In this document: one piece after another, positions 28,427 to 60,492 of the stretch
Numbering within the stretch: the stretch's first letter is position 1
Layout: every line of letters begins with the position of its first letter
Assembly (NCBI GenBank): GCA_002049455.2
Contig: KV918910.1
Span: forward strand, 62,001 to 126,000
Direction of reading: 5' to 3'
DNA: 64,000 nt
Origin: Porphyra umbilicalis
Taxonomy: Eukaryota; Rhodophyta; Bangiophyceae; Bangiales; Bangiaceae
The notes under the pieces: generated by a model
The model's database searches: none
The model's input: only the letters and a program-made list of their open reading frames with translations
What the model was told of the DNA's origin: nothing
Program-made: the position numbers and the translations under genes

Positions 28427-28473
<47 letters not shown>

Positions 28474-36725: not shown

Positions 36726-36774
36726 CGTCGGCGGTCCTGCCCAGGCCATTTTTCTGGTTACTTCTTGGCGATTT
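36726..36774. repeat. Left terminal inverted repeat of the giant element
   Basis: It starts CGTCGGCGGTCCTGCCCAGG and includes GGTTACTTCTTGGCGATTT. Aligned by hand to the right end it is roughly three-quarters identical, with the outermost ten bases perfect. Confidence 0.8.
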
Positions 36775-36879
36775 TTTTGTGACACACACACACCAGAAGG
36801 CACCAGGAAGTCACCAACGGGGGCCACTGTGAAACTGAGACGGTGGCACCAAGAAGTCGCCAAACGACCGGATGCACAT

Positions 36880-37055
36880 CCGGCGTGGTCGGATAACAGC
36901 CCTAGTTATCGACAAAATTATAGAGTTAACAAAATACCGCACTGTATTTATGTTCATTATCAAATTTTGTTTTACTCTGTATGTACTTAAGAACTTATCG
37001 ACATTTATGATAAGTCATCTATGTATGACGCACTTGCAGGAAGTGCGTGAAGGGC
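36880..37055. repeat. AT-rich left subterminal region with short hairpins
   Basis: An unusually AT-rich stretch with several small inverted repeats in a row: GATAAC...GTTATC, ACTTAT...ATAAGT, GTCAT...ATGAC and GCACTT...AAGTGC. Just outside, ACTTCTTGGCGA and CCAAGAAGTCGCC form a further inverted pair. CACTA-type transposons use subterminal repeats as transposase-binding sites; that role is an inference here. Confidence 0.5.
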
Positions 37056-38297
37056 TCAGACAAGCGGAACCGACGAGCGCCAGACACGTCTCAGACAACA
37101 GCCGGACGCGGACAAACCTCGTGACAGGGAACTGGGTACCAGTGCAAGAGAGATCGCATCGTAAGGACAAGTGTAAACAGAACGAGCAGACAGTGGCCGG
37201 GTCTCGTGAAATGTCATGCGACGGAGCACAATGTAACGGGGGAATCGAGAGAGGCCCGCGGAGACGCAATGCAGCTCACTGGGGGGGGCAATGAAACGGG
37301 CCAGGAACGCGGGCATACATGGAAGCAGTGAGGGGACCAACAGTGAGAAGACCTCCTCGGGGCACGGGGGCAACAGTCCAGCGCCAGAGGCCAGTACCAC
37401 ACAATCTGCAGCGGGGTCGTGACCGGGGCGATGATGCACGAACGGAAGAGACACGACCTCGGTCAGCACCTGGCGTTGCGAAGCGCCTCCACAGAGAGCC
37501 CGGTGTTGTCCCGCTGCAGGACAGAGGCATGGCGCCGAGCACCCATGAGAGGACCCGTAGACTCGCCGCCTGTACCGCCGACTGCGCAATATGGGCGTCC
37601 ATACAACACCGCGGAGTGGACATGAGACCCAGCACAGGAACGACGGAATGGGAATGAAAAGAAAATCACACACACAAAGGGAGGGAGAAGGTACGCATGA
37701 CATACAACGGGACGCGTGAGCAAGAGGCCGGGTCGAGCGATAACGGATGTTATAGGCACACTCCACGCCAGGATAGCTCTCTCGGCTACAGGACCCCCCC
37801 ACCCTTGCACCCCCGAAAACCATTATTGCCAGCGCCGCCCCTTCCGCACCCCACTGGCTCTGTTCAGCTCCTACTCATTGCTGCTCGCGCCGGAACTTGC
37901 CGAGGCGCGCCGCAGCCCCAACAGGCTCACCCCTCCATTCAAGGATTGTGAAGGCGCCGTGAGCCATCGCGGCGGATCCCCCCTGCCCCTCTCCCTCCTG
38001 CCAGCGTTCCCGCAATCTGCCTGCTCGATAACATACACTCAGGCATCCACCACCCTTTCCGCCAGGTGCCGCCTGCCCCGCCACAGGACGTCTCCTCCGC
38101 CACCTGGCTCGGCGCATGACTGCATGCCGACAAGGTCGTCTGCAGCTCCGGGCCCCGTCGGGCTCGGAAAGGCGCGCTGACGTCCTACCGGCGCTACCGC
38201 CGCGCATCGGCCCCGCCACAGGTCCGCGAACCGCCACGCCCTGAGCCCCATCTTAGCGCTCGCCACCGGCAGCCCCGTCACCGCCAGCCGCGTTTCT
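37056..38297. other. Left part of the giant element, no gene supported
   Basis: A 255-codon minus-strand frame (37056-37823) exists, but its Cys/Ser/Arg-rich composition is not protein-like. Part of this stretch may be the 3' untranslated region of the gene at 38298-40188. Confidence 0.4.
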
Positions 38298-40188
38298 TCA
38301 GGTCGAACGACGGGCACGGCTCCGCGGTCGCCGGCCCCCGATGGCGACCTCACCCGTTGCTTCATCCGAGCTGTCGCCGCTCTCGTCGCCACAGGAGGGA
38401 GGGCCCACGCGCGGGCGCTTCGCACGCGCAGAGCGGAGCGAGCCACCAGGGACTACATCGTCATTGAGCAGGTGCTGTCGCCGGCGCTGGGCTCTCTCGT
38501 CAGCGGACGTTGAGTCCTTCCCGTCAACCATGGCCGCCTCGTCGTCTGACTCTTCCTCGACGGCAGCGTCGTTCACCAGCTCCAAGACGGCACGGACCCG
38601 TTCGAGCCGGGCCTGCTCTTTTGCTGACGTACCTTGCGGGGCGGCCACGTCGAGGTTCTCCCGTTCTGCGAGCACCTCGCCGTCCTCGCCGACATCCAAG
38701 CGGAAGTACTTAGCCCAAATGGTGGGCCTGCTGGTCCTTCTGCACCTGCCTCGCGCCGAACGCCAAGCTCAGCAGCTCCATCAGGATCTGCACGTGTTGG
38801 AGCGCGATGGAAAAGGGGAAAGACGATGGGACTTGGCAATCGACAGTGGCCGGCCAAGACAGGCAGGAAAGCAACGCAAGCAGTAAGGTCAAGACACGGG
38901 CGTCAGAATGCGTGAAAAAGTAAGCCACGGAATGTCAAGCGGAAAGGAGTAGCCGAATCCCAAGTCACAGAGAAGGATGATGGTCCAATCGCACCTTGGC
39001 CGAGACCCACGCCACCTGGGCTCTCCAGGCAGGTAAGACGTTCCCATCGCCTTCGTCAGCAGAGGTAGCATTGTCGTTGTCTGCATCTGTCTCGTCTTCG
39101 GCGTCTCGGCGCTTGCTGACGATACTTTTGAAGACGCGAAAGGCCTCGATGAACCCCTTGCGGCCGCGCACAGTCATGAGGTAGCGCCGGCCATTGAGCC
39201 ACCACTCCGCCTTTGCCGCGTCAGAAGTAAGTGGCTGCGGCGGCTGGGCGTCTTCCTCGTTTCCTCCGCTGTTCACCACGGTATCGAAGGTCGCTCCCGC
39301 CATCCATGCCCTCGTCGTCGCCCGTCCGATGGCGTGGTGGAGGTTGGACCGCGCGCGGTAACAAATGCCGCGGACGAGATCGTTGTTGCGGACGCGTGCA
39401 TCTGGCGGGGGCTCAGCAGATGCGTTCGCCTCGCCGTTGGTGCCGTTTGCAGACGCCCGCGTCGGAGACGGCGAAGTGGTGCCATCGTTTCCTTCAGGTG
39501 GTGGCTGCGCCGTGCTAGGAGTAAGTGCCGGCGTGGACGTGTTGTTCTTCCACCTGCCCGTCTTGCTCGGTAGGCGCTGGGCAAGCACCCATGTCGCTTG
39601 GGACGGCGAGCACTCAAACGTCCGCTGCACCGCCTTGCGGAAAAGGATGGACACGTCGCCCTCGCCGTGGTACACGTCATCGGCAAAGGCCGGGCGGTGC
39701 ATGTAGTGTCGCACGCGGTCCCGCACATTGTGCCGCACAGCCGCCCGAAGAGCCAGCTTGTCCTCCGACGTCGCCGCGGCGGCCCATTCCGGAGGAGCAA
39801 CGACACCAGTGCCGCGTGTGGCGGCACGCCGATGGCTGCCGCCTTCAACTGAGTCCCCTAAAGTACCGTTGCTTGCGGCGTCTGTTGAAGGACGCGCATC
39901 GACCCCAATCCCGGTGCCGACAAACTGTCGCGCGTCAGGGGGCCTTCCGCGTCCGTCGTCGTCTTGAAGTTGGTCGACAGACGCAGTGGAACCTGCAGAG
40001 CGCCGCGGAAGGGACAAGCCGTCCTCGCGTGCTTCCAAGGCGGCCCCTGCTGCGGTTGGCGGCGGCACCGCCGACCGCGCTCGAGGCCCTCTTCGGACAG
40101 GTACGCGCGCGCTCTTTGGCCTTTCCGGGCGTGCTCCGGAAAGGGCATCGCCGTCTGGGATGTGCGATTGTTCACCCGGGTCCGTCAT
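38298..40188 (-). CDS. Unknown multi-exon gene of the giant element
   Basis: Family not recognised. The first exon runs from the ATG at 40186-40188 (MTDPGEQSHIPDGDALSGAR) to about 38995, where WVSAK is followed by a donor (GTGCGATT on the minus strand). It encodes about 398 residues: a disordered Arg/Pro-rich start, a helical part (AVRHNVRDRVRHYMHRPAFA, ILFRKAVQRTFECSPSQATW) and a C-terminal part (DLVRGICYRARSNLHHAIGR, KAEWWLNGRRYLMTVRGRKG, FIEAFRVFKSIVSKRRD). A second exon near 38711-38298 has YFRLDVGEDGEVLAEREN, an acidic Ser/Glu run, then basic residues and a stop. The junction is not resolved. It lies divergently from the transposase side of the element and could be an accessory transposition protein (inference only). 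Possible upstream coding sequence lies at 40190-41750. Confidence 0.5.
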
Positions 40189-40189
40189 G

Positions 40190-41750
40190 CTGCCTCCTCG
40201 CGCAGTCCGCCCACGCGCCCCACCGCCGACACAAGCAGCCGGATCGAGGCCTGCAGCAGCAGGCGCACCGGCAGCAGCAGCAGCAGCAGACGAGGGCCGA
40301 CCGGCGTCACGATCCTCCTCAGACGTGGTCCTGTTGTCTCAGTCTGCGGCGCGAGGAACCCGGTCCCGGGCGCGCGATGTCGCTCTACCGCCGGCACGAG
40401 CAGCGCCTCGCGTCTCCAAAGAGCTCCTGCGATCGTCATTGCGCGTGTTCACGGCACCGTCGGCAGGACCAACGCGGTTGCGCTCGTACGTGATCCAGCG
40501 CTTGGAGCCCGCCCACCGTGGAGGAACGGCACTTGGTCGCACTGCAGGAGACCCGGCCACAGCGGATGCAGCGCGCGTTGAGCGTCTAGAAGGCAGCGCC
40601 GCAGTGGCTGATGCAGCTGCCGATGAACGTGTAGCGCGCTGTGCAGCTGCAGCCGCAGCGACGTTGGGGCCAGATGACGGCAGTGTACCCGGGTGGGCAT
40701 CCTCATCCAAGCCGCCCACCGCGATCGTATCCGTTTCCGCCTGCCGGCGCGTCATCGCAGCGCCCGTAGCAGTCCACAGCGTAAAACGTGGGCGGAATGC
40801 GGGGGGAGCCGCGGGTACAGCATGTGCGGTGGCTGCGCAGCGCGTCGGCGGCGTCGGGCTTGACACGGTGCCGAGCCTCTTAGAGTGGACGCCTGAAGAT
40901 GGCGCGAGGGAGCGGTGGAGGCGGTGCCGTCATCGCTTCCGCCTGTCTGGTCGTAGTCGCCGAAGAGGCCCGAATTGGTTTCACCGGACAGCTCCTCGGC
41001 CTCTCGTGACGTGTGGCCAACTGCTCCGTATGTACATGGATCGCGAGACACCTACAACCAAGGGGGCGGATGCAAGGTGCCGGCGTCTCTCCAACGTCAC
41101 AGGCAGAGCCATCCACCCCACTAGAGCCCCGGCCAGAGGGGCGCACAGTGGACCGTACCCCAAACCTCAATACCAGGTTCCCGGCACGCAACATTGGTCG
41201 CCGTAAGAACCACGAAAAGCTCACTGCACTCGCACCCGTGACGAAAGGAGCGCCTGGACCGGCAGCAAGGGCGTGCGCATCTCTGGAGCCGAGGTGCGGC
41301 GCAGTGAAGGATTCCAGGGCCTGGTGTGGCAGCAGTCGAGCGCTCGTTTGCGCTACCGGCCAAGCTGCGCAGTCGATTGAGGTTGGCGCCGGGAACGACG
41401 GCAAGTCCGTTGGAACTGTCTACAGCGGGCTTCCCGCGGCCACAGACGTCCGTTGGGAAGCCGGCGTGCCGCCAGTGTCTGCCACACTGGTACTCGCGAG
41501 GCACTCCTGGTGTAGCCAGTTGTGTCGCCACCCAGGGTGAGGATCTGGTCGCCCCTGGCCAGAGCTCCCCGGAGCAACCGCTGTGGCTGTTGTGGACTGT
41601 CTCGGAGCTCGATCCAAAAGGGCCACCAGAGAAGGAGAAAAGGAAGACGCAGCAGTAGGAGGTGGCGCCCGGCAGCTGTCAGGGCTGATTGTCGGTGTCG
41701 CAAGGTCCTCACAGACGTGCCCAGTCCAATATGACACTGTGCACGCGTCA
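40190..41750 (-). other. Possible further coding sequence, minus strand
   Basis: Protein-like stretches occur on the minus strand, for example AETDTIAVGGLDEDAHPGTL and SKRWITYERNRVGPADGAVN (40,440-40,740) and EAEELSGETNSGLFGDYDQT (near 40,960). They may be exons upstream of 38298-40188 or a separate gene. The competing plus-strand frame opening at 40187 is Ala/Arg-rich and less convincing. CAG repeats occur near 40250-40295. Confidence 0.3.
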
Positions 41751-42860
41751 TCGGGTGGCAGCTCGAGGACCCCTTAAACGACTGGCGGCAGCTCCAGTGC
41801 CCCTCATTCTTGCAGCCCAGCGCGTATGAGATGCGGAGGGGTCCACTTCAGTGCAACTTTCGGCCTCCAGTATGAAGGTGTCCGTACAGGGTGCTCTCAG
41901 CTCGATGTCGCTTGATACGCTCAGCTGATCATCTAGCGTCGCCAAAGGGCCGCCCGAGAGCTCTCCTTTGACGTACTTCGAGACTTAGCACGCCCAATCA
42001 TCTTTCAGAGCTGAGAGGAGCCGTCCGGGGAGTCGATCACTGTAGTCCTCTAGTCCCATTGTAGGCCGCTCCGACAGCTCTTGGGTCGACAAGTGCTGAA
42101 CACAGGATGGGGGCGGCTTATCGCACGTTGGGAGCAGGAGCGCACGAGGGAGATCACGCACTGTATCCTCTGCAGGCTCTAGCGTCCCAGTACTGCGACA
42201 GGCCCTGTGAAAATCCCATGGACGGCGGTGACGGTGGCGACCTCCTCTTCGCACGGCAGGTATCCTTGTGACCTCAGCACGCGGGGTCGCTGACGTGGGG
42301 CTCCGGTTGAAGGAAGACCTGTGCATCCTGTCTTTCGCTCCTACACCCTCTCTGACGACGTGTGTTGAGCACGTGAAGCGGTGCATCCCGCTTCTCCCTC
42401 CCACCCCCGTGCATCTGGGACCCTCAGGCCGTGGCGTGTGTCGCGCAGTGCATCCTGCTCGCGTCGGAGGGGGGCTGGGACGACGACACACTGCCAGAGG
42501 TGCGGAGCGATGCCAGGGAGGGCTCCTGCACAAGGGCTCGGTGAGGTGCCAATAGGGGCGTGGGACCACGGTGGAGCTAACCCGTCGTGGAGCGCATCCA
42601 GTAGTGGGTGCTGTGTGTCGTGTCTCGCTCGGGCCCGGGGAGCGGAGAACGGCGTGCGTCCTTTGCGTGGGGGAGCACGGGGGCGCGACTGCGAGCGCGT
42701 GGGGAGGGTGAGGGGCACCCAATAGAGTACATAGGTGACGTCTAGCACCTCTTTGTGCCCACACACAACGATACCCCGCCTCACAGTCTCCGCTCCCTCT
42801 GACCCACCCTCCACAACTTCCTCTGCCTCCTCGTCTCCTTCACTCACGCCCTACTGTAGC
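41751..42860. other. Region upstream of the histone H3 variant
   Basis: No gene supported. The final 90 bases before the ATG at 42861 are C/T-rich, as in other leaders in the window. Confidence 0.4.
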
Positions 42861-43475
42861 ATGGGCCGCACGAAGTCCCCTGCCCGCCGTAGCGCCTCCC
42901 CCGACCCCGCCCACACTCGCGGCGGCAAGAGCATCGTCGGCCTGAAGGGCATGAAGGGCCAGGCGCGGAACGCCCTGCGCACGAACGGCTTCGCGAGTGG
43001 TGTCCGGGCGGCGCTGGTGCTGTCCGACGCCCGCGCAGCCGCCCAGAGAGGCGGGGCAGCGTCGAGCGCCGGCGGCGCGGCGGCGGAGCACGGGGCTGCC
43101 GAGAGTGTGGCAGCCGCTCAGCGCTCCCTCCACCAGGCGCAGGCGCCGCGCCTCTACGCCGGCGGGGTGAAGAAGCCGCAACGCTACCGTCCCGGGACGG
43201 TGGCGTTGCGTGAGATTCGCAAGTTTCAGAACTCCACCGAGATGCTCATCCCTATGCGGCCCTTCCAACGTGTTGTCAAGGAGATCGCTTTGGGCTACAA
43301 GACCGACCTGCGCTTCCAGTCGACGGCGATTGTGGCTCTGCAGGAGGCGGCAGAGGAGTACCTCGTCGGCGTGATGGCCGATGCCATGATGTGTGCGCTG
43401 CACGGTGAGCGCAAGACTCTGATGATGAAGGACATTGCGTTGGCGCGCCGCATCCGCGGCCCTGACCGCGTCTGA
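42861..43475 (+). CDS. Divergent histone H3 variant with extended tail
   Basis: A nucleosome core histone of 204 residues (canonical H3 has 135). The tail opens [13 protein letters not shown], which aligns with H3 ARTKQTARKS: R2, T3, K4, R8 and S10 are kept, K9 is R. About 70 extra Ala/Arg/Gly-rich residues follow. Then [20 protein letters not shown] rejoins H3 at Gly33, with K36 kept; ungapped, K27 becomes Ala. The fold continues [40 protein letters not shown] and ends [13 protein letters not shown]. By hand count it is about two-thirds identical to animal H3 over the fold. K56 is Asn; K79, C110 and H113 are kept. Loop 1 has canonical length, unlike most CENP-A proteins. No intron. It lies inside the giant element, upstream of the transposase on the same strand. 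Confidence 0.93.
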
Positions 43476-44275: not shown

Positions 44276-45010
44276 GCCGTGTGGACGAAGCGGGACTGCC
44301 TCGCACGGGTGCAGGCCAGCACTTGCATCCCGCGGTGTAGCTACACGCGCACCCAAATCCAAAAACTGCTGGGTCTACAAAGGGATCACTCCCGAAATCG
44401 TATCTCTTACCCAATGGGCGAGAGATCCTGAGTCCTCTGCAGAGGGGACAAACTTGTTGCTGGTCGCTCGCCGATCCACAACCTCCGCTCCGCGCAAACA
44501 GCACCAATGGAGGACCGACGCTGACGTGCGTCAGGCCATCGGTGAAGGACGCAGTTACTGCGCATCGGGCAGCGGTTCTCGAACAACGGCACTTGCTGCT
44601 TGACGGCGACCGCCCGACATTTTCCATCTACTCTCTGTGAGCCTCACACGAGTGCGCTGTCGGAATCCCCACCCCCCCTAGCACGCTTACCGCAACTCCC
44701 GCACCACCGTCGCTGGCTGTGGCGCGACTCCCCGTCTCCGACTGTGTCGTCGCCTTGTCTGTGCCCTCATACCGCCGCTATTCGGTTCCCTACTACCGAC
44801 GCCCCCCTTCGATTCCGACGGCAGTGCGCTGCCCTGTCAACACCGGACAACCTCCGAGCTCCCCCATCGTCCTCTCGGGCACCATCTGCAGCGAGGCTCT
44901 AGTCCCTGCGTTGGTGCCGTACCTCCGGTCTCTTGACGGCGGCGGGACCACAACGGCCACCTGGTGGCTGCTTCCTTCTCCCACGGCAGTGCCTCCCTCC
45001 AGTCCTCTCC
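44276..45010. other. Region upstream of the transposase
   Basis: A short frame ending at 44431 (METGHQLRKMLLENLLRQPK) looks somewhat protein-like but is not recognised. From about 44640 to 45010 the plus strand is C/T-rich and probably includes the transposase leader. Confidence 0.35.
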
Positions 45011-48000
45011 ATGGCACCGCGCCACCGGTGTCCGCACAAGAATTGTAGCAGGTCATTCCGGTGGAAGGCCGGCCTCGGTCGCCATGTTCAAGTGCAGCAC
45101 CCAGATCTGATGGGCGTCGCGCAGGCTCTGCTTGCCGGTGCGGACGACTCGCAGACCGCCAATGTCTGCGGCAGCACGGCAGCTCATGGCAGAGAGATCT
45201 TCTCCGGCGCTGGCGTTGCGGTGGCAGCACCAAGTGCTGCCGCAGATGCAGACAAGGATGCCAACGAGGGTGCAATGAGCGACGTCGAGGCCGACGGCCA
45301 CAGCGCCGACCTTCGGCGCACCAACTCCTGGACGGGTTCAGATGGAGACGTTCTCAGGACCAGCAGCAGCAGGTCGTCGAGCAGCTCCAGCGTCGCATCG
45401 TCCAGCAGCACAAGCACCTCGACCGACGTTGATCCTACAAGTAGCACCTCGGACGACTACTCATCGGCCGATGAAGTTCCACCCGCTGCTGTCGGCGCCG
45501 GGGACGGGCGGCCAGACTTAAGCAACCTGTTCGTCGAATCATTGCGGGACCAGACGCCGGTTGCGATGCTCGGGCAAATGGAGTACGGCTCGAGATAAGT
45601 GGGCGCGTGCTGCGGTGGTTCCATGAGATGAGGGATGCGGACAGGTCCGCGCCCGTGTTTTCCGGTGACGGGGACATTGCCGACACGGCCCGCTTCGACA
45701 CACCGGCACTGAAGCGCGTATTCTCCGAGGTTTGCACAGCCAACGGCGCAGGGATGAGCCGCAACGAGGCCAGCAACCTCTACGTCATCCTGCGCGCGGT
45801 GGAGACGGCGGCTGGTCCGGATGGAGAAGTCGGCGGCCGCTTCCCCAGCAAGACAGCTTTCTGGAAGGCCATCCGCAACGAGAAGAGGCGGACGCTGGAA
45901 GCCTTGGGCTGGCGGACGGTGCCACTCGTGATCTCCGGAAAGACGTACCATCTTCTCTACCGTGATGCGCTTGACGTGGCTCAGGAGCTTGTGCGGCAAG
46001 TGCGGGTCGACCACCTGCAATGGGACGCCACTGTGCCGGACGACGCAGACAGCAATGAGGACCATGTCTGGACGGGTCCTTTCGACAGCGCCGCCTTCTT
46101 CGAGAACGACAAAGACGTCAGGGAGAAGATGGCGGCTGGCACCAAGGTCCTCGGTCTCTATGCATACTCTGACAGCACCATCCTGACGAGCAGCGGTGGT
46201 ATGTTTATTGCTCTTGAGTCACATGAAGGGGAAGCCTGCATCACTCCTGTCCGTACCCTGGCGAGCTTTGCTCCACTGCGGGGGCGTGGTACCGCATTGC
46301 TGAGCTCTACCAGTTACTGACTCTTGGATGCCACTGACCAATTTCACCCCGATTGCCTGCCTCAGCCGTCTCCGCTTACCCTGTCCGACTGTGTGTCATG
46401 AACATCAAGACCAAGCGCATGCACTGGGTAACAGTTGGGTACATCCCAATGGTGCTGCACAAGTACGAGGGCGGTGCCAAGGAGAAGACGTCAGCCTCGA
46501 AGGCGGAGTTGCTGCAGCGGTCGTTGTATCTCATCTTTGGCCGTTGCATGGAGGCGTCTCACACGGGCTGCCTCATCACCCTCCAGGATGGTACGACGAA
46601 GACTGTGTCACCTCGCCTACTTCTCTACTCTTGCGACTACCCCGAGGAGCGTAACCTGCTGTCCCTCAAACAACACGGCAGCAAGCACGACTGCACTCTG
46701 TGCCTCGCCGACTCCCAGTCATTTTCCGGGAGGCCAGGCCTCAACCAGCGCAAGAGGGACGTCATCGAGACGGTGACGGCTCAACTGAAGGGCGCGTGTT
46801 TGCGTAAGGAGCACGGCGGGTGCGCCGAGGTGAAGGCCATTGAGAAGTCAATGGGTATACACTGCCGGGTCCCCAGTTTGGCGGGGTGGGCAGGGCTGGG
46901 ATCGGGGTGCAAGCACCTCTACCAGGTCACCGGTTTTGACCGGCTTCACGTAAGTGCAATGGTGTTGCCCCGTTGCTTGCCATTGTGGTCTCTCTGTTTG
47001 ATAGCTGACATACGTCCGTGCGCTCCTGAGTAGCATCCAACACGCGTCAACTAACACCCTGTATAACTGCCCACTGCTTTGTGTTATCTATTCGCGGTCG
47101 GTTCCCACCTATCGGCAACAGGTGGTCGATGTGGGTCTCTGCCGTCGCCTCTCGAATGAGGTCCACATGTACGCGGAGCTGGTGGACGACGAGTTTGGGC
47201 TCGCTGAGGGAGCCTCGGCCGCGTCGCTGCGCAGCGCTAACAGGCGCTTTATGCACGCATGCCGAACTAACCCGGTGCCCCACATCACTCCAGGGTACGC
47301 ATTGCAACGGTCTTCAAACGCGCTTGCGGGCAATGGGGGGACGACCTGAGCGGGGGGGGGAGCCGGCGACACACCTGGTGTGGGAGACGTTGAAGATTTT
47401 TGTCCGCCTGCTGTTTCTGGATACTGATTCTTGCTCATGGACATGTGCCGAGCGCTCTCATTGTGACCACGCCTGCTCTCCGTCACTTCCTTTTGTCCTC
47501 CTCTCGCTGTGTGCAGCTACTTCGTGTCGCCTTCAGAGAAGCAGGCCACATTGCGCGGTGCCGAGCACCGGCGCGCGCTCCACTTTCTTCCTTTTGCTGT
47601 GGCTGCCATTCTGGGCGCCGCCGGAAGCAAGTGGAACCACTCCGTCCTTACATGGGCCATGTGTGAGCTCGCGGCGCTGCTACGGGACATCTTTGGCCCT
47701 GCCTGCCTCGGCGGAGGCGTCAAGGTGAAGCGCGCGCGGGAGCTGACTGCCCGTTTGGCCACCTGGGTGCACAGGGACTTCCAGGGACTCTTCGGCCCGC
47801 TTCACACACCCAAGCTACACCGCCTCCTCGCCCATGTGCTCGACGAGCTCCGCATGCGCGGCTCCCTCCTTCTAGGCGACACGGGGATTAACGAGAGCAA
47901 GCACAAGGGGGTCAAGAAGGCCTACACACGCACCAACCGGGGCCGCACGGAGCACGCGCTGCAGATGCTCATGGCGGAGCAAGTCGCTGACGTTTTGTCC

Positions 48001-48894
48001 TGGGAGGCTGCTGACAAGGACGAAGACGATGACGTGGATGTGGCGAACAACGACGACCTCACGGCGGGAGACGGCGCGAACGTCCCGCCACCCCCCCCGG
48101 CTGCTTCCGTAGACGCAGGAGCACAGACGCATCCTGCAGGGTCAGCAACCCCCCGTGGCGCCCGAGTGGGGGCGATACCGGTCGTAGCAGCGGCAGTGGC
48201 AGATCATGCGGCCGCTCCTGGTCCTTGTGCCGCACCTGCCGTCGATGCACCATCCATGAGCAGCCCGCCACGACAGCGCCGCCACGGCGTGCCGATGCGT
48301 GTTGGCGTCATCGCCGCTGAGCGTTCAATTGAGGGCCTCGCGGAGTGCCTGGAGCTGACAAACAACGACGTGCTCACCGTTCCCGTCGGGACCTACTTGG
48401 CGCATGGGACGGCTCTGCGCCGCGGGGGGCAGCGGCGCCAGATCGTCAGGGCGTCTATGGATTACCTCGGCGGCCCGTGGCTCGACTGGGTGGAATACAC
48501 GTCGGCGGATGGCGGCTACCGCGTGGGCCGCGCACGCGTGGTGATAACAGGGATCGGTAAGCGCCCCGTCCGGCTGCTGGTAGTCGAGCGCGCCCGCAGA
48601 GTGCCGGCCGACAACGGGTGCCCCTTTGCGGCGTACAAATGCACGCGCCTTCAATTCGACATGAAGGCATCTGGCGTGACGCCGGCAATTGAGTGCGTGC
48701 CTGTCAACCGTGTCAAGCGCGTGCTCTGCGTGGAACACGACTGGGTGAATTGGGTGTCTTTCTACGGCTTGGAGGTCATGCCGGAGGCAGTGGCGACGAC
48801 GAGGCATGAGACGGCTCGGGCCCGCTTCTTTGTCAATGCTTTTATTATTTGTAGGCGAACCACGTTCTTTAGTGTTCAACCGACCGATGCATAG
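45011..48894 (+). CDS. EnSpm/CACTA superfamily transposase, Plavaka-like, with N-terminal C2H2 finger
   Basis: The probable enzyme moving the giant element. Exon 1 starts at the ATG 45011 with a C2H2 zinc finger (CPHKNC...GLGRHVQVQHPD, residues 7-32), then a Ser/Asp-rich linker. The next part carries LRWFHEMRDADRSAPVF and LGLYAYSDSTILTSSG. After the 46199-46365 intron comes YPVRLCVMNIKTKRMHWVTV, PRLLLYSCDYPEERNLL and CTLCLADSQSF. After the 46950-47121 intron FDRLH joins VVDVGLCRRLSNEVH. The last exon (from about 47517) has SKWNHSVLTWAMCELAALLR, TPKLHRLLAHVLDELRMRG, INESKHKGVKKAYTRTNRGR and a C-terminal part with YRVGRARVVITGIGK. This order matches Plavaka/Tnp2-type transposases. The frame changes near 45,560-45,600 and at the G run near 47,355 are unresolved, so intactness is uncertain. 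Confidence 0.8.
46199..46365 (+). other. Spliceosomal intron in the transposase gene (167 bp)
   Basis: Donor GTATGT at 46199 and acceptor CTGCCTCAG ending at 46365. Splicing joins TSSG to AVSAYPVRLC in frame through the split codon G|CC. Confidence 0.85.
46950..47121 (+). other. Spliceosomal intron in the transposase gene (172 bp)
   Basis: Donor GTAAGT at 46950 and acceptor CGGCAACAG ending at 47121, phase 0. Splicing joins GFDRLH to VVDVGLCRRL, the conserved transposase order. Confidence 0.88.
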
Positions 48895-50664: not shown

Positions 50665-50702
<38 letters not shown>

Positions 50703-50740
50703 AATCGCCCCCGCCGCCGCCTCCCCCGCCGCCGCCTCCC

Positions 50741-50771
<31 letters not shown>

Positions 50772-51130: not shown

Positions 51131-51176
51131 CTGTTTGACTGCTGTTGAGAGGGGAGAACTGAATATGGTGACGTAA

Positions 51177-54100
51177 ACGACTCGGGGACTAGCCCCGTTG
51201 CGGGCGGCATTAACGTCTCCAGCCTTCATATCAGAACCGCCGTCGCCCACGCTCCCTCCTCCTCCACCGCCAGATGCACGGACGTCAACGGTGGCCGCTG
51301 CGTCCGCTCCCGCCCAGTCGGACACCGACGCCTGCGCTGTGAGTCGGGCACGTTTTGTGGCGCGAGCCGCCATCGCTTCGGCGGCGGCCGACGCGGCCTA
51401 CCTCGTGGCCCCCGAGTCGCTCGTGGCCGACGCGCCGCCCGCGCCGACGTTGGCCGCCGCCGTGCCGCTCCCAGACGTCGACGGCGGTGGCGGCGGCCCG
51501 CCGCTGCCGTCGCCGCCGCGGCGGCGGCCGTCGCCGGGCGCGGCGGCGGCGGCGGCGGCGGCAGCAGCGGCAGCCGCCGCCGCGCCCCTCCCCGACTTTG
51601 ATGACAGGGACGGTGGGAGCGTCGGCGCGGCGTCGCCGCCGCCGGCGGCCAAGCGCGCGCCGTCGTCGTCCTTGTCAGCGCCTGGCGGTGGGCGCTTTGG
51701 GGCGCCGCCCGGTCGGGCGGATGGGGCGGCACCCGCCGGCGGCTTCCGCGCGGGCGAGCCGGCCGTGGCCACCCTTTCGCTTTCGTTTGCGCACCCGTAC
51801 GGGGCGTCGCCTCCGCCCTTTGGGGCGGCGCCGTCGGCAGGCCGGTTTGGAGGCCGCCAGCCCGCGGGGGCGTCGCCGTCGGTACTGGGCGGAGTGTTTG
51901 GCGCGCCACCGCCGGCGGGCGGCGCGGGCCGCGCACCCGCAGCAGGCGGGATGTTTGCCGGCCTCGGCGCGGCGGCGGTGGCGGCGACCGCCGCGCCGCT
52001 GCCGGGTGGCGCACCGAGCCCGTTGGCGTCGGCACCGACGCTGCCGGCGGGACGCGCTGCACCTGCGGGGGACGGCGCTGACGGCGGCGCCGGGGATGAG
52101 AGGGCGGCCGATGAGGCGGCGGCGACGCGTCGCCCGCCCGTCCGCGCGCGGCGGTCGGCGGCGGGGGCGGCGGCGGCGGCGGCGGGCGCGGGCGCCGTGA
52201 CGCCGCCGCCGCCGCTGCCGTCGACGGCCGTGGCGGTGCCCGGTCGGCCCCAGCGGCAGCCCCCCCCCCACGCGTCCCCCCCCCCACGTTCGCCGCCCCC
52301 CCCCCCCCCCTCTCCCCCCCCTCCTCGAGCCCGACATCACGCCGCGCTCCGCCCTCCGCTCCGTCATTAGTGAGGCGGAGCGGGAGCTCGGGCGCCGGCG
52401 CGGAGCGGGCCATGGAGGGGAGGCTCGAGCGGCTCGCCGCCGCCACGGCGGCCGCAAAGCGGGACGTGACCGCCGCGGCGGCGGCGATTCACGAAGCCGC
52501 GGGCGGCGTGCGCATCGACGTGGCGGCGGCCATGGCAGCCGCCGAGGCGGCCGTTGACGACGCCTCCTACGTGCTCGCCGCCGCCGCGGGAGGCGGGGGG
52601 GGGCGGGGCGCCGCCCTGGAGGGTGGGTGGGGGGGGGACGCCTCCCCCGCCGCGGGTTGGCGCCACCGTTCCCTGGACCCATCGTCGGCGGCGGCGGAGC
52701 AGACGATGGCGGCGGCGGAGCGGGCGGTCGGCGGCGCACTCGACGGCCTCGACGCTGCGGTCGAGGCGCGCCGCCACAACGCCACCGCCGCCGCCGCCGC
52801 GTCGTGGCGGTCGTCGCGGCGGCCGCGCTCCCTCGCGGGCGCCGGGCGGACCTAGCTCGTCAACGTCGCCGTGGCGGGCTCCCGCCGCCACAGCAGCGTC
52901 AGCAGCGTCGGCGGTGGCGGTGGCGGGGGCGGCGGCGGCAGTTGCTGCCCGCTTTGGCCCGTTGGCGTCGGCACCAACGCTGCCGGCAGGACGCGCTGCA
53001 CCTGCGGGGGACGGCGCTGACGGCGGCGCCGGGGATGAGAGGGCGGCCGATGAGGCGGCGGCGACGCGTCGCCCGCCCGTCCGCGCGCGGCGGTCGGCGG
53101 CGGGGGCGGCGGCGGCGGCGGCGGGCGCGGGCGCCGTGACGCCGCCGCCGCCGCTGCCGTCGACGGCAGTGGCGGTGCCCGGTCGGCCCCAGCGGCAGCC
53201 CCCCCCCACGAGTCCCCCCCCCCCACGTTCGCCGCCCCCCCCCCCCCCCTCTCCCCCCCTCCTCGAGCCCGACATCACGCCCCGCTCCGCCCTCCGCTCC
53301 GTCATTAGTGAGGCGGAGCGGGAGCTCGGGCGCCGGCGCGGAGCGGGCCATGGAGGGGAGGCTCGAGCGGCTCGCCGCCGCCACGGCGGCCGCAAAGCGG
53401 GACGTGACCGCCGCGGCGGCGGCGATTCACGAAGCCGCGGGCGGCGTGCGCATCGACGTGGCGGCGGCCATGGCAGCCGCCGAGGCGGCCGTTGACGACG
53501 CCTCCTACGTGCTCGCCGCCGCCGCGGGAGGCGGGGGGGGGCGGGGGCGCCGCCCTGGAGGGTGGGGGGGGGGGGGACGCCTCCCCACTTCGGGTTGGCG
53601 CCACCGTTCCCTGGACCCATCGTCGGCGGCGGCGGAGCAGACGATGGCGGCGGCGGAGCGGGCGGTCGGCGCCGCTCTCGACGGCCACGACGCTGCGGTC
53701 GAGGCGCGCCGCCACACCGCCACCGCCGCCGCCGCCGCGTCGTGGCGGTCGTCGCGGCGGCCGCGCTCCCTCGCGGGCGCCGGGCGGACCGAGCTCGTCC
53801 ACGTGGCCGCGGCGGGCTCCCGCCGCCACAGCAGCGTCAGCAGCGTCGGCGGTGGCGGTGGTGGGGGCGGCGGCGGCAGTCGCGGGGGCTCCCCGTCGCT
53901 GCCCCCCTCCCCCTCCCCGTCCCCCCGTGCACCACCATCCTCTTCAGCGGCGTGCGCGTCCCTGGCCCCGCCGCCCGCCGGCGGTCGTCGGTCGCGGCGG
54001 CCGTGGGTGGGGCGCCGGCCTCCCCGTCCCCGCTCGTCGCCCGCCGCCTGTCGGTCGCGTTGACGGCCGGCGGGTCGCCGGCGCCGCCGTCGCCGCCGGC

Positions 54101-54716: not shown

Positions 54717-55227
54717 GGCTGCCGCCCTGCCGCCCGGGCGGGCCTCGCCTCGCCCGCCGCACCCACGCCTCGCCCCGTTCCCGGCCGCTGTGTGGCTGCC
54801 TCTGTTGCCGCTGCGCCGTTTGCTACCGGGCCGGCGAGCGGGGCGCCCGCCGTCGGCGCCGCCCCTGCCGGTGGCCGCCCCGCCCCTCGGCCCGCCCTCG
54901 CCGCCTGCGGCACCGCCCCCGCGTGCCGGCCTGTGAGGCCCCCTGCTCCCGCGGATCCACGCCGCGGCGGCGGCGCACGCTCGCGCCTGTGCCCTGCCGG
55001 CCCGCCGCCCTGCCACGGCCGCCTCGGCGGAGCTGTGCGCCTCCGCGTCCGCCACGGTGCGCTCCCTCCTGCCCGCCGCCGCCGACGCGTCTGCTCCGCT
55101 CGCGCGCCCGGCCGAAGGGGATGCCGCCGGCGCCGCCCTACCCCCTCCCGCTGCCCCTGCCGTCGCGCACAACTTGGATCTATGACAACCAGGCGCGGCA
55201 GGGGACGATGGGGGGGGTTGGGCGGCC

Positions 55228-55685
55228 ATGCTGGCGGCGCCCCGCCCACCGACGCAGCGTCACGTGGCGCGGGCGCTGCACTGCGCGGCGCTCGCGCGGC
55301 TCACCCCCCCGCTGTCGCTGTTGGACCGCGGACGCCTAGCCGGCATACGCGGGCACGGCGCCGGCGCCTGGCTGGCGGCCTTGCCGACCGTCGGCAGCGC
55401 CGGCACCCGCCCGCCGGGGCCCCTGATGCGCGCGGCGACGCGGGTGTGGCTGGGGGTGCCTCCGGTCGCCACGCACACGCGGGTGTGCTGCGTGTGCAGG
55501 GCGGACGTGGACCCCACGGCGCGCACTTCTTGGGCGACTGCCCGGAGCGCGCGCCGGGGCGCGCGCGCCGCCACTCGAGCATCCTGTACCTCGTGAGCGA
55601 CGCCCTGGCGGCGTCGCCCGCGTGGACAGACGTGGTGCTCGTGCAGGCGAGGCGACGGACGCGAACGCTGACGCACGCGGCGTGA
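55228..55685 (+). mobile_element. Truncated non-LTR-like reverse-transcriptase C-terminal fragment
   Basis: Plus-strand frames carry GHGAGAWLAALPTVGSAGTR, AATRVWLGVPPVATHTRVCC, a CCVCRADVDP motif, GAHFLGDCPERAPGRARRHS and LYLVSDALAASPAW. The pattern 'GAGAWL-LP ... RLGLP ... CxxC ... D-x-G-x-H-x-x-x-C ... RRH' is typical of the region following the polymerase domain in many LINE-type reverse transcriptases. No polymerase or endonuclease domain is seen upstream, so this is a 5'-truncated remnant. The opposite strand is the tail of the PZP gene region. Confidence 0.45.
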
Positions 55686-55904
55686 GTTTCGACGTGCGCG
55701 CCACACGCGTCGGCTCCGGGGCGCTGGCGTGGGGGAACCGCGGCGGCCGCGGCGGCGGTCACGTCGCCCCGCCGCGCCCGCGCTGTCGCCGCCGTCGGGC
55801 GGCACGGGGCGCGGCGGCCGCGCGGCCGCGGGCGCCGCGGGCCACGCGCGGTGCGGGGGCGTTGGCGGGGGCGGCACTTCTCCCCCCTGCGCCATGCGTG
55901 GCCG

Positions 55905-56088
55905 TCACGGCCTTGCCACTGGCGCCCCCCCCCCCCCCCCCCCCCCTCCCCCCTGCCGCGTCGCCAGCAGCGCCGCCCCCGCGTCCCCACACGCCCCACA
56001 CAGCACCGGCTCGAACGTGTCGCGAGCGCCAATGCCCGCCGCCCGCATCCGCCCGTCGACGTCGTCGAGGGGCATGGTTTTGCGGGGC

Positions 56089-56120
<32 letters not shown>

Positions 56121-59100
56121 GGCGGGAAGCCCACCGGCCCGACGCAGTCGTCGCACCACACGCGCGGGCAGGCGGCGCTCGTGTAGAGCATGGAGCCCGC
56201 CTCAGAGGCGAGGCGCCCGCAGCCCCCACGGGTGCGCGGCGCAGCGGTAGCCCGGCCGCGGGAACACGCGAATGGCGCCCGCGTGCGCCGCCGCCGCGGC
56301 CGCGGCGGCGAGCGCCGCGCCGCCCGCCGGCAGCGGCGGCGGCGCCACGACGGCGGCCGCAGCGGCCACCGCCATCGTGTCCGCGTCGGCGATCGGCGCG
56401 TGGCACGCGCGGTGGATGACGTTGGGGCACAGGACGCAGGGGGTGGCGTCCACGGGGGGGGGGGGACCGCCGCCGGCTCGGGCGGCACGGGCACCCGCGG
56501 CAGCCGCACGCGCGGGGCGGCGGGCGGCGGCGGCGGCGGCGGCGGCGGCCGAGGCGCCCCGGGCGCCGCCCCCACCCCCGTGGCCACGGCGCGCGCGGCG
56601 GCGGCGGCGGTGGCCGCCGCCCGCTCCGCGGCGGCCGCCCGCGCATTGGTCGCCCGCGCGGCGTTGGCGGCGGCCGCCGCCGCGGCCCGCCGCGCGTCGG
56701 CGGCGGCGGTCAGGGCGGCCGCCCACGGGGCGGTCGTCGCCGGCCGCTCCCACACGAGGCACCGGCGGCGGTGCGTCCAGCGGCGCCGCCGACGGGGCGG
56801 ACGCCGCCCCGGCCGCCGCCGCAACGTGGAGGGCTCGGCACGTCACGACGCCCCCCCCCCCGGCGAGGCACACGCAGCACGGCGGCCCGCGCGTAGCGGC
56901 GGCCGAGGGGGGGACCCCGACCACGCGGCGCGCGCCCCAGTCGACGCGCAGCGCGGGGCCCCACACCGCACACGCCACGTGCACCCAGCGGCGGGCTACG
57001 CGCCGCCGGCGCGCGTCGGAGAGGGCAAACACCGCGCCGCCCGTCGACGGGCACGCGGCGCACGTCACGGTGCCGCGCGGCACGCCGTCGACGCACGCGT
57101 CGCAGCGCCAGCGGGGCTGCTTGGGGCGGGCGGGGCGGCCGTCCCCCCCCCCCCACCTCCCCGACCTCCGCTGCCACCGCCGCCGCCGCCGATGGCGCTG
57201 CCGCCGACAGTGTCCCCAACCGCCCGGCAGAGGGCGCCGAGGCAGCGACGCGCCACGGGTCACTTGTGCGACGTGTCCACGTCCGCAGCGCCCAGGAACG
57301 GCTCGAAAAACCGCCAGTGGGTGGTGAGGAAGCCGAGGCAGTACGCCGTCGCCGCCACCGCGTCGCGCTTGACCCCGCGGTTGCGCTCCGCGCGCGCCGC
57401 ATCCGCCGCCACCCGCCGCTTGGACGAGCTGACGGCGCCGAGGCCGTCGTCCTCCACCCCCCCCACCACGACGCCGTCGCCGGCGGCCACGGTCGCCGCC
57501 GCCGCCACCGCCGCCGACGCCGCCGCCACGGCCACCCGCGCCACCGCCGGCGCCGTGTCGGCCCCGGAGTGCGCGCCACAGCACGCCACGTACGGGTCGG
57601 CCAGCCCCGCCACCACCGTCACGAGCCACCCCCGCGCCCGCCCGCAGCGCACGTGAAAGGACCGGGTGCAGCGCACGTCGGCGGGCACGCCCGCCGACGG
57701 GGCGGACGCCGCCCCGGCCGCCGCCGCAACGTGGAGGGCTCGGCACGTCACGACGCCCCCCCCCCGGAGAGGCACACGCAGCACGGCGGCCCGCGCGTGG
57801 CGGCGGCCGAGGGGGGGACCCCGACCACGCGGCGCGCGCCCCAGTCGACGCGCAGCGCGGGGCCCCACACCGCACACGCCACGTGCACCCAGCGGCGGGC
57901 CACGCGCCGCCGGCGCGCGTCGGAGAGGGCAAACACCGCGCCGCCCGTCGACGGGCACGCGGCGCACGTCACGGTGCCGCGCGGCACGCCGTCGACGCAC
58001 GCGTCGCAGCGCCAGCGGGGTTGCTTGGGGCGGGCGGGGCGGCCGTCCCCCCCCCCCCACCTCCCCGACCTCCGCTGCCACCGCCGCCGCCGCCGATGGC
58101 GCTGCCGCCGACAGTGTCCCCAACCGCCCGGCAGAGGGCGCCGAGGCAGCGACGCGCCACGGGTCACTTGTGCGACGTGTCCACGTCCGCAGCGCCCAGG
58201 AACGGCTCGAAAAACCGCCAGTGGGTGGTGAGGAAGCCGAGGCAGTACGCCGTCGCCGCCACCGCGTCGCGCTTGACCCCGCGGTTGCGCTCCGCGCGCG
58301 CCGCATCCGCCGCCACCCGCCGCTTGGACGAGCTGACGGCGCCGAGGCCGTCGTCCTCCACCCCCCCCACCACGACGCCGTCGCCGGCGGCCACGGTCGC
58401 CGCCGCCGCCACCGCCGCCGACGCCGCCGCCACGGCCACCCGCGCCACCGCCGGCGCCGTGTCGGCCCCGGAGTGCGCGCCACAGCACGCCACGTACGGG
58501 TCGGCCAGCCCCGCCACCACCGTCACGAGCCACCCCCGCGCCCGCCCGCAGCGCACGTGAAAGGACCGGGTGCAGCGCACGTCGGCGGGCACGCCCGCCG
58601 ACGGGGCGGACGCCGCCCCGGCCGCCGCCGCAACGTGGAGGGCTCGGCACGTCACGACGCCCCCCCCCCGGAGAGGCACACGCAGCACGGCGGCCCGCGC
58701 GTGGCGGCGGCCGAGGGGGGACCCCGACCACGCGGCGCGCGCCCCAGTCGACGCGCAGCGCGGGGCCCCACACCGCACACGCCACGTGCACCCAGCGGCG
58801 GGCTACGCGCCGCCGGCGCGCGTCGGAGAGGGCAAACACCGCGCCGCCCGTCGACGGGCACGCGGCGCACGTCACGGTGCCGCGCGGCACGCCGTCGACG
58901 CACGCGTCGCAGCGCCAGCGGGGCTGCTTGGGGCGGGCGGGGCGGCCGTCCCCCCCCCCCCCACCTCCCCGACCTCCGCTGCCAACGCCGCCGCCGCCGA
59001 TGGCGCCGCCGCCGCCGCCGCCCCCCTCACCGGTTGGCGACGGCGGCAGCCCTCAGCACGAGCTGTGCGCGGCCACGCCGCACCCCCCACACGTCGTCAG

Positions 59101-60127
59101 CGGCTCGTGGCACTCCAGCCCCGTGCCGCACGCGTCGGACTTGGGGGGCCCCGCCGTCAGAGCACCGGCCACGTCTCCTGCCGCGTCGGCGGCGGCGCCG
59201 TCCTGCTGCCCACAGTCCGCCCCAGCAAGCTGGATGCGTCGGTCACATCGGGAGGGCCCGTCGTCGGCGGCGTCGTAGACGATGGATGCGCCGCCGCTGC
59301 CGCAACAGCCGCTGCCGCAGACGCAGCAGCGGCCGCCGTCGCCACCGCCGATGAGGGATACGCCCCCGCCGCCCATGCGCGGCGCGCGCCTGCGCCGGCG
59401 GCAGGCAACGCGTCCCGACGCCTGCCACACCACAACTGTCCCCCCGTCGTGGCCGCTGCGGGTGACGCCCGCCGCAGCGCGCCGCGGCGGCCGAGGAGGC
59501 CCGCTCCCTCGGACGCGGTCGACTGCTCTGGGGCGGTGCGGCGGACCCCCCACAGACAAATACGGCGGTCCACTGTTTGGGGGCACGCCCGCTCCAAAAG
59601 GGCAGGCGCGCAAGCGCCAACTGCAGGGGGGTGTCGCGGGAGCAGCTGCCGCCGCCGCCGCCTCGCGGTTGCGGAGAGCCATTCCCCCCTTGGTGGCCTC
59701 ACGAGGCCTCGAGTCGCGAGTGTGGCACGCTAGCACGCATGCTGCAGCGCGCGGTCGGCGCAGGCGTTTGAGGACGAGTCCCGCGCGGCCGCGCAGGCAC
59801 CAGCGTTGGGCGGCCCTGGCGGCGCCGCCGACCAGCAGGGAGACAAACAGGGCGTTTGGTCGAGACACCCTCGAATTGGCGCCACCTGATGGTTGCGACT
59901 GCACTGTCGCCCACGTGATTCAAGGGTAGGGGCATAGACTGAGGCAAACGCAGAGACCGGCAATCAGGGATTACAGATTGCGGATCAGACGGCCCAGGTG
60001 AACCTGAAGGGGTCAACACTGATCTGGTTCTTGGGGGCGACGAAGCTGTCGGCCGGGCTGATTCAACTGATTCATCTGTGCTCTGTTGCAGGGACCTCTG
60101 GCGACCCTTGGACTTCAATCCGAGCAT
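55905..60127 (-). CDS. PHD-Zn-knuckle-PHD (PZP) chromatin reader with tandem exon duplication
   Basis: Probable histone H3-tail reader like the PZP modules of BRPF, JADE and AF10. A possible first exon opens at the ATG 60127 (MLGLKSKGRQRSLQQSTDES). PHD1 follows: GRCCVCGSGCC, DACGTGLECHEPLTTCGGC, GVAAHSSC and RWRCDACVDG. Then the Zn-knuckle (VTCAACPSTGGAVFAL, WVHVACAVWGP) and PHD2 (PPCCVC, DVRCTRSFHVRCGRARGWLV, YVACCGAHSG), ending LTTHWRFFEPFLGAADVDTS. The knuckle-PHD2 block occurs in two complete copies and a third partial one through a 904-bp tandem duplication. Further Cys-rich segments lie downstream (PCVLCPNVIHRACHAPIADA, MLYTSAACPRVWCDDCVG, EPVLCGACGDAGAALLATRQ). Many exons and C/G runs make the exact model unsure. 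It lies inside the giant element, at the opposite side of the transposase from the H3 variant. Confidence 0.6.
56786..59000. repeat. Tandem duplication, period 904 bp, about 2.4 copies
   Basis: Units start near 56786, 57690 and 58594 (GACGGGGCGGACGCCGCCCC in each). The third is cut short near 59000. Copies differ by only a handful of substitutions and C-run lengths. Each unit holds one exon of the PZP gene (about 58168-58923 and 57264-58019) and one intron-like spacer. Confidence 0.92.
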
Positions 60128-60442
60128 GATTTAAAGGCTTTGTGGAGCGCATTAGTACTGGTGGCGCTCTTCTGCCAGCAGAGCCCCTGCGAACATCGGA
60201 GAAGCTGCATTGAGCCTCCTGTGCGGCAATTGTGTAGCGTTCCGAGCACTGTATGCTCCGATTGATCCCGAATTGGACGGAAAGTGGCCCAGGACGCTGG
60301 GACTTGGCAGCTCACAGCGCTTACCCATTGCTTTTTCCGTGGAATGGTCAATGGAGCCGTAATCTGGGAAGCACCAATCTAGCGACAGTCCGTCTCCAGT
60401 CTGGTATCGCACATTCCCTGGGAGCACCACGCGGTGGGGCTC
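60128..60442. other. Right subterminal region of the giant element
   Basis: Moderate GC, no gene supported; it probably contains the promoter of the minus-strand PZP gene. Confidence 0.4.
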
Positions 60443-60492
60443 TCGAAATTCACCAAAGTAACCAAACAAGCGCGTTGGCAGAACCGCCGACG
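60443..60492. repeat. Right terminal inverted repeat of the giant element
   Basis: It ends TTGGCAGAACCGCCGACG, the inverted counterpart of the left end, and includes CACCAAAGTAACCAAACAAG, matching the inner block of the left repeat. Confidence 0.8.

Follow-up and report, generated by a model that had tools for sequence, protein, structure and literature searches.

A giant Plavaka-type transposon of the red alga Porphyra umbilicalis encodes a histone H3 variant that might give silencing-proof nucleosomes

A giant transposon bounded to the base within a satellite array

The genome of the red alga Porphyra umbilicalis harbors a giant Plavaka-type transposon of 23,767 bp (36726–60492, + strand, in the 64-kb stretch of DNA analyzed here, hereafter the window), which carries a gene for a variant histone H3 upstream of its transposase. 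We are highly confident of the identity of the element and of H3 as a conserved part of its cargo. Taken as a whole, the observations seem best explained by an element of the Plavaka branch with a captured, silencing-resistant H3, a reading to which we give about even chances.

The element interrupts an array of a 332-bp satellite (32581–36725, 12.5 copies, 99% matches) that ends with ..GACATGCCGTAT at 36725 and restarts with ATTGGGCGG.. at 60493, resuming in phase to the end of the window (60493–64000, same 332-bp unit, 99% matches). Only the dinucleotide AT is duplicated (36724–36725 and 60493–60494). The 120-bp flank obtained by joining both sides and removing one AT is identical to nine units of the left array and one of the right array, and shows a single mismatch to each of two further right-array units; the empty site is thus present many times over. 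These ten exact sibling units bear out the earlier note on this DNA, which had described a cleanly split satellite with base-exact boundaries and a duplication of AT only. Among the 31 matches listed, the satellite is found only on the contig of the element (C150) and on C54.

The terminal inverted repeats, CGTCGGCGGTCCTGCC on the left (36726–36741, + strand) and GGCAGAACCGCCGACG on the right (60477–60492, − strand), match at 15 of 16 bp, and the ungapped match becomes patchy further in; the inverted ends reported previously are real in these outermost positions, whereas an extent of "about 50 bp" is correct only if an imperfect repeat is accepted, in which both ends have a GGTTACTT block (read by eye). 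A second copy of 27.3 kb (C12:451855-479179) is 93–96% identical over its whole length; it has identical termini and is flanked by a 2-bp duplication of its own, GT. Of the further pairs of this terminus, 17 were read: 14 are flanked by a perfect 2-bp duplication (13 of these duplications end in T) and three by none. Allowing at most one mismatch, the terminal motif matches 559 places genome-wide versus 267 for a reversed control pattern, so that close to half of the single matches may be background, and the argument rests on the paired termini. The right sub-terminal segment (59900–60492, + strand), common to other elements, is found at 41 places, and beyond C150 and C12 six contigs (C6, C83, C41, C121, C3, C2) match it at 80–92% over 483–585 bp.

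This is therefore a large, precisely bounded, cargo-carrying DNA transposon, as the earlier note had proposed, with a second copy, an empty site and recognizable cargo genes. Elements of the EnSpm/CACTA group can also be large and carry genes, and the joins at both junctions are known from the assembly alone; yet an ordinary CACTA-like element or an assembly artefact with nothing special about it is scarcely credible in view of the second copy with its own duplication, the exact sibling empty sites and the conserved cargo.

A Plavaka-type transposase with distinct termini

The transposase is encoded on the + strand in several exons (44903–48891), whose limits are those of the open frames: one with a zinc-finger N-terminus recognized by eye (44903–45595), followed by 45475–46317, 46338–47030 and 47467–48891. 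The third contains a match to the Plavaka family PF18759 (46371–46787; 35.4 bits in the Pfam scan, cut-off 26.3; positions 131–271 of the 325 of the profile). Hallmarks of Plavaka transposases are D, D and E catalytic residues alongside the motifs C(2)C and H(3-4)H; a by-eye reading of the frames, without alignment, gives CTLC plus the candidates YSDST, SCDYPE and INESKH. Relative to the C12 copy, the C150 transposase has a frameshift near 45.6 kb. Neither of the two full-length copies, ~5% apart in sequence, has an unbroken transposase frame, and these copies are thus relics, not demonstrably active.

The previous assignment of this gene to an EnSpm/CACTA-type transposase was right as to its presence and its clade, Plavaka being grouped with EnSpm/CACTA in the 'CMCT' clade (PMC12730594, excerpts), but the family is Plavaka, and membership in CACTA is ruled out by termini without CAC..GTG and by a duplication of 2 bp, not 3 bp. 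The duplications found, AT on C150, GT on C12 and those of 14 of the 17 other pairs, have the length given for Plavaka in the same excerpts, namely 2 bp in PlavakaA and 2–3 bp in PlavakaB. The ends, CGTCGGCGGT..ACCGCCGACG, correspond neither to the TGT..ACA of PlavakaA nor to the CATCA..TGATG of PlavakaB, so that the element fits neither of the two named sub-lineages and is classed as Plavaka-type on its transposase alone; CA..TG ends, described there as common to most CMCT lineages, are absent from the C150 element. With the fungal PlavakaA and PlavakaB, as far as these excerpts describe them, the element shares the PF18759 transposase, a 2-bp duplication and a chromatin-related cargo (TET/JBP in PlavakaB); it differs in its termini (CGTCGG..CCGACG on C150), its red algal host, its full copies of 23.8 and 27.3 kb, and a cargo of a core histone and PHD fingers instead of a dioxygenase.

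The cargo includes a variant histone H3

An open frame upstream of the transposase (42735–43472, + strand) encodes a histone H3 variant of 204 aa (42861–43472) made of a long alanine-rich tail and an H3 core. The core matches PF00125 (E 3.7e-33) and, with E-values as low as 5e-42, H3 chains in the PDB, the best solved relatives being H3.3 and H3.1. The protein shares 96% identity with BU14_0049s0023 of P. umbilicalis and 68% with the host H3, and its frame is intact in both full copies. We listed 76 H3-like places in the genome, 36 of which were read; in a tree that includes four of the nine loci of the element H3 and five database relatives, there is one clade at 98/100.

Position 9 is R at all nine clade loci, lysine 4 is kept at eight, and the lysine-27 motif is lost from the element H3, while canonical host H3 genes have both K4 and K9 in all four read. 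The added tail, common to the clade loci, is long, starts with MGRTK and contains conserved blocks. Many core residues that hold the nucleosome together are kept, and K115 and others are changed, so that entry of the variant into nucleosomes is not certain. Compared with canonical H3 and CENP-A, the H3 core is held in common; the long tail is new, position 9 is R, and the K27 motif and K115 are lost. The AlphaFold model (ten rows) was too poor to use (mean pLDDT 45).

An extended loop 1 is a hallmark of CENP-A. A centromeric H3 was rejected here, the element H3 having the same length as canonical H3 and no loop-1 extension, whereas the likely centromeric H3 of the host (C17:290868) has one extra residue in this loop. 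A viral origin of the H3 was not supported: a scan of viral contigs with the relative P0129 returned a single stretch of 36% identity. The H3 and its tail could also be imagined to aid transposase assembly on the element ends, or to steer insertion to sites such as satellite arrays, which would fit the position of the C150 copy inside an array and the conserved blocks of the tail. We regard such a role as unlikely, since the C12 copy lies outside the 332-bp satellite, the terminal motif occurs on many contigs, and the extra loop-1 residue of the likely centromeric H3 is missing.

Two more multicopy H3 families of this genome, not demonstrably mobile, have arginine at position 9 as well, in all loci read (19 of 19 in one family, 2 of 2 in the other). 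In eight translated frames (six of L050, two of L057) the flanks of the second H3 family matched only histone-fold Pfam families.

H3 and transposase are kept together in several sub-lineages

The 76 H3 places were compared with 104 of the 150 listed transposase places, the remaining 46 being compared separately and further transposase-exon matches by eye. At seven of the nine H3 clade loci, a same-lineage transposase exon lies 2.8–3.4 kb downstream on the same strand, and in five of those seven (C150, C12, C83, C121, C2) the right end follows further downstream, again on the same strand. Such pairing would have a chance of ~1e-20 if the loci were independent, which they are not, as they represent about four sub-lineages. 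From the 46 extra places came a single additional pair, on C28, whose members are separated by 20 kb. Database relatives of the H3 (P0129) and of the transposase (P0142) are each listed with a 13,919-base contig, in all likelihood one and the same. The order of H3 and transposase is thus conserved in about four sub-lineages.

There are exceptions to this pairing. No H3 is found nearby at three of the ten lineage transposase places (at least 64% identity; C110, C2:745894, C84:170278), and a copy on C6 shows no H3 match although its last transposase exon and right end are present. Two of the nine H3 loci (C39, C390) have no same-lineage transposase exon near them, and H3 is broken at three (C1, C61, C390). 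C39 and C390 share 2.4–3.4 kb with the element copies of C1 and C61, and thus, in the near surroundings compared, none of the nine H3 loci is plainly a free-standing host gene.

The element H3 is under purifying selection. Over six of the nine loci, dN/dS lies between 0.12 and 0.25 in 13 of 15 comparisons, including C150–C12 (0.25; 12 synonymous and 9 non-synonymous changes), C83–C39 (0.19) and C150–C83 (0.12, with a dS of ~2.1 that is near saturation), the other two values being 0 and 1.2; C83 and C121 differ by 4 synonymous and 0 non-synonymous changes, and the value of 1.2 comes from C39–C1. When only the two full copies, C150 and C12, are compared, in an underpowered scan of 128 frames, H3 ranks third for synonymous excess (p 0.0036, non-significant after correction).

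The H3 might still be a passively captured hitch-hiker without a role in the element: some lineage members do without it, three of nine loci are broken, and fragments of host genes are known from transposons, such as the broken H4 and H1 fragments of Helentron-Cq-32A of Culex (PMC4067079, in part). This appears improbable to us, as dN is only ~0.25 between sub-lineages while synonymous change is near saturation, the order and strand are the same in seven of nine loci, and the long tail with its MGRTK start is held in common. The likeness to the Helentron thus lies in a histone sequence within a transposon; here, unlike in what is described of that element, most copies have an intact H3, and the gene has been retained in different sub-lineages. 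Selection might instead act for the host, with the transposon having merely spread an H3 of use, for example, in one life stage. Purifying selection and the two other R9 families would be compatible with this, but it is made quite improbable by the three broken loci and by the sequence that C39 and C390 share with element copies.

A possible escape from silencing

Under the explanation that we prefer, an ancestor of this Plavaka-branch element would have acquired a histone H3 gene from its host, probably in a single event, and the lineage would have kept this gene ever since, upstream of the transposase, as a regular part of the element. If the variant enters nucleosomes, these could not take silencing methyl marks on H3K9 and K27, assuming that the host uses such silencing, and would stay open to the H3K4 mark that goes with active chromatin; the element's own chromatin, or newly formed chromatin in general, might then resist silencing long enough for transposase to be produced. 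The kept pairing of H3 and transposase suggests that the element may package itself in silencing-resistant chromatin. An anti-silencing function of the variant falls somewhat short of an even chance, and we advance only tentatively that a transposon lineage encodes its own core histone, with K4, without a K9 lysine and without the K27 motif, and makes silencing-proof nucleosomes with it.

TET/JBP dioxygenases are carried by DNA transposons including Plavaka, and SET methyltransferases by others (PMC12730594, excerpts). As in those elements, the cargo gene here would act, putatively, on host silencing, but it encodes the mark-bearing protein, an altered H3, and not a mark-changing enzyme. Supplying the marked protein itself would, if true, be a different tactic from that of enzyme-carrying transposons, and no transposon with an intact histone is named in the titles and abstract openings of the open-access PMC literature searched. 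Whether a parasite can escape heterochromatin by supplying unmarkable nucleosomes is a testable question, for which these elements offer natural, selection-shaped H3 variants that lack both K9 and the K27 motif, in eukaryotes whose chromatin is little studied. Multicopy H3 'genes' of algal genomes may be parts of transposons and call for caution. If our reading is true and the two further R9 families are of the same kind, silencing-proof H3 would be a recurrent selfish strategy in Porphyra.

PHD fingers and the rest of the element

The opposite strand encodes extended-PHD zinc fingers (PF13832) at 56832–57065 and 57751–57969 (28.6 and 34.9 bits, cut-off 27) and shows a weak PHD_2 match at 59026–59103 (14.7 bits, below the cut-off of 28), in a region (56832–59103, − strand) where the exon is present in three tandem units of ~904 bp. 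PZP-type readers combine a PHD, a zinc knuckle and an extended PHD in one protein. Here the extended PHD is matched, the first PHD is below cut-off and the frame is broken or spliced; the PDB matches of the extended-PHD piece are PHF14, BRPF1 and JADE, which read the H3 tail. By exon search, the exon is found three times on C150, once each on C12 and C384 and nowhere else; PF13832 is above cut-off on C150 and C384 and not on C12, whose exon is known from the exon search only. None of the 37 listed PF13832 places lies between the transposase and the right end of the C83, C121 and C2 elements. PHD fingers were therefore rejected as a lineage-wide part. In the C150 sub-lineage, the PHD-finger protein may, like known H3-tail readers, bind the H3 variant, a partnership that we consider doubtful.

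The earlier note had counted seven or more genes, of which six-frame Pfam scans of the element recognize three; elsewhere in the element the same scans gave no Pfam match, and Rfam and tRNA searches gave nothing within the 64-kb window. The GC-rich right half also contains a tandem duplication of ~939 bp (52018–53534), which is single in the C12 copy.

Insertion site, termini and a second copy

The 332-bp satellite breaks off after position 36725 and restarts in phase at 60493, on either side of an insert of 23,767 bp (36726-60492). Once joined and relieved of one AT, the flanks yield a 120-bp sequence that recurs unchanged in nine left-array units and one right-array unit; two further right-array units carry it with one mismatch. 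The empty site of the giant element is present within the satellite array itself, and the precise interruption with duplication of AT described in the earlier note is borne out. The matching inverted ends it had reported, about 50 bp in all, stand as a terminal 16-bp repeat (15 of 16 positions matching), but show only patchy similarity further inward. Among the places listed, this satellite recurs on one further contig, C54, which carries ∼8 kb of it (200117-208109), mostly 95-96% identical. A 15-bp minisatellite of 20 copies, CCTCCCCGCCGTCCC, lies at 29794-30099 of the window.

We searched the 83.8-Mb assembly (in which the window is G000:C150:62001-126000) and found a second copy, which had also been suggested as a check, end to end on contig C12 (451855-479179), with 93-96% identity over the entire length and flanked by a GT duplication. 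The giant element is no assembly accident. Compared to the C150 copy, the one on C12 carries additional insertions of 5,494, 526 and 71 bp and is without 728, 178 and 1,546 bp of the tandemly repeated right half; its 5.5-kb insertion (C12:455395-460884) is perhaps a younger mobile element. We also read 17 further terminus pairs picked from the listed terminal-motif places: a perfect 2-bp duplication flanks 14 of them (AT seven times, GT three, CT two, TT and AC once each), and the remaining three may represent old, rearranged or mispaired ends. The shorter pairs look like non-autonomous relatives sharing the ends of the giant element.

A Plavaka-type transposase

Six-frame Pfam scans over the whole element matched Plavaka (PF18759, 35.4 bits), a core histone (PF00125) and PHD-like zinc fingers. 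The transposase had been taken for an EnSpm/CACTA type, which is correct at clade level only: Kojima (2025, PMC12730594) describes Plavaka transposases as similar to EnSpm and places them in a "CMCT" clade, with target duplications of 2-5 bp, yet the family designated by PF18759 is Plavaka. A C2H2 finger is visible by eye at the transposase N-terminus, and the UniRef name of a P. umbilicalis relative, BU14_0208s0025, begins with "C2H2-type domain-containing". The reading frame is broken in both full copies, by a frameshift near 45.6 kb in C150 and by one stop and one frameshift in C12. This genome holds a very large number of Plavaka-type transposases, with at least 150 matches (150 scored of 311 candidates) down to 31% identity.

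A histone H3 travelling with the transposase

The element encodes a histone H3 of 204 aa (42861-43472, plus strand) that is intact in the C150 and C12 copies (96-97% identical). The C12 protein corresponds to BU14_0049s0023 and a relative on contig C83 to BU14_0154s0024, both from Porphyra umbilicalis, a bangiophyte red alga. The core of the element's H3 shares 68% identity with the host canonical H3, and the closest solved structures are H3.3 and H3.1. Of 76 H3-like places listed genome-wide we read 36, which comprise nine loci of the element's clade, four canonical genes, 19 members of a second multicopy family, two of a third family, one likely centromeric H3 (L084) and one other (L041); with 36 of 76 places covered, the clade has at least nine members and further ones may exist. 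It is separated from the second and third families with a support of 98/100 in a tree of 17 rows that includes four of the nine loci.

In seven of the nine loci (C150, C12, C83, C121, C2, C1 and C61), the H3 is followed 2.8-3.4 kb downstream, on its own strand, by an exon of this transposase lineage. None was found near the H3 of C39 and C390; on C39, an exon of a different Plavaka lineage (33-42% identity) lies 1.3 kb past the H3. Conversely, H3 accompanies seven of the ten transposase places of the lineage (at least 64% identity), all except C110, C2:745894 and C84:170278. Of the 140 more distant transposase places (at most 52% identity), just one has an H3 place within 20 kb; it is on C28, beside an H3 of the second family. 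The last transposase exon follows farther along on the same strand on C83, C121, C2, C1 and C61, and a right end lies past it on C150, C12, C83, C121 and C2. Assuming one element each, the copies on C83, C121 and C2 would span about 23.6, 14.4 and 34.9 kb, respectively, between H3 and right end; a strong left-end match was found on C12 only, and these spans are not full element lengths.

Selection on H3, and features of its tail

Six loci of this clade (C150, C12, C83, C121, C39 and C1), out of the nine, were compared by Nei-Gojobori counts. C150 and C12 differ by 12 synonymous and nine non-synonymous changes (ratio 0.25), C150 and C83 show a dS of about 2.1 and a dN of 0.25 (ratio 0.12), C83 and C39 a ratio of 0.19, and C83 and C121 four synonymous changes and no non-synonymous one. 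Over 15 comparisons, the ratio is 0.12-0.25 in 13, 0 in one and 1.2 in one (C39-C1). Among 128 frames scanned between C150 and C12, that of H3 ranks third (p 0.0036, uncorrected), which is weak taken alone, and the case for selection rests on the deeper comparisons.

The simplest account would be a single capture of a host H3 by this Plavaka lineage, which would have kept it because it helps the element. A function in transposition or targeting is possible, as is one in the service of the host. The tail starts with MGRTKTPATRS in the C83 protein. In an ungapped alignment to ARTKQTARKS, K occupies position 4 in eight of the nine loci, with E instead in the broken C390 copy, and all nine have R at position 9; the four canonical host genes have both K4 and K9. 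The element's H3 lacks the ARKS motif that surrounds K27 and exceeds canonical H3 by about 68 to 101 residues; of the nine loci, C1, C61 and C390 are broken. Among 11 jgi/ena database relatives (P0122-P0132), the MGRTK start is found in seven, altered in one and in a missing region in three. With K4 kept, K9 replaced and the K27 motif missing, the tail residues point to an H3 whose predicted nucleosomes would be refractory to presumed silencing marks. Transposons carrying silencing-related enzymes (TET/JBP, SET) are known (PMC12730594), as is a Culex Helentron with broken histone fragments (PMC4067079); none with an intact, conserved histone is named in the titles and abstract openings of the open-access literature searched.

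The GC-rich right half of the element also encodes, on the minus strand, extended-PHD fingers for which the closest matches of known structure are PHF14, BRPF1 and JADE (E 3e-4 to 4e-3); the names of some BRPF1 and JADE chains describe fusions with histone H3. This exon is present three times in the C150 element and once each on C12 and C384, and so seems private to the sub-lineage of this element.

Other H3 families and neighbouring sequence

The second H3 family (L043-L058, L079, L080 and L082; e.g., C28:240645-240983, C94:204597-204935 and C8:8125-8463) starts with MARTKQTARRSTGGKAPASL and has R at position 9 in all 19 loci, K4 in 18 and, judged by eye, RR at the place of K27 in most. The flanks read, those of 16 loci (L043-L058), are dispersed repeats with 1.5-3.4 kb in common at 87-99.9% identity, and two members, L050 and L055, differ by 13 synonymous and one non-synonymous change; this family is possibly another mobile H3. 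A third, divergent type, with a MARVKQ start and R at position 9, is found at L081 (C137:51677) and L083 (C268:14924). L084 (C17:290868-291173), with one extra residue in loop 1 and a divergent tail, is likely the host centromeric H3.

In the window, 10 of the 13 kb at 16000-29000 have 75-87% GC, and the region encodes LIM domains (PF00412; best stretch 23260-23427, plus strand). Upstream of the satellite lie a protein kinase domain (PF00069, E 1.7e-67; 4107-4895) and a DnaJ domain (PF00226; 9826-10014), which are ordinary host genes.
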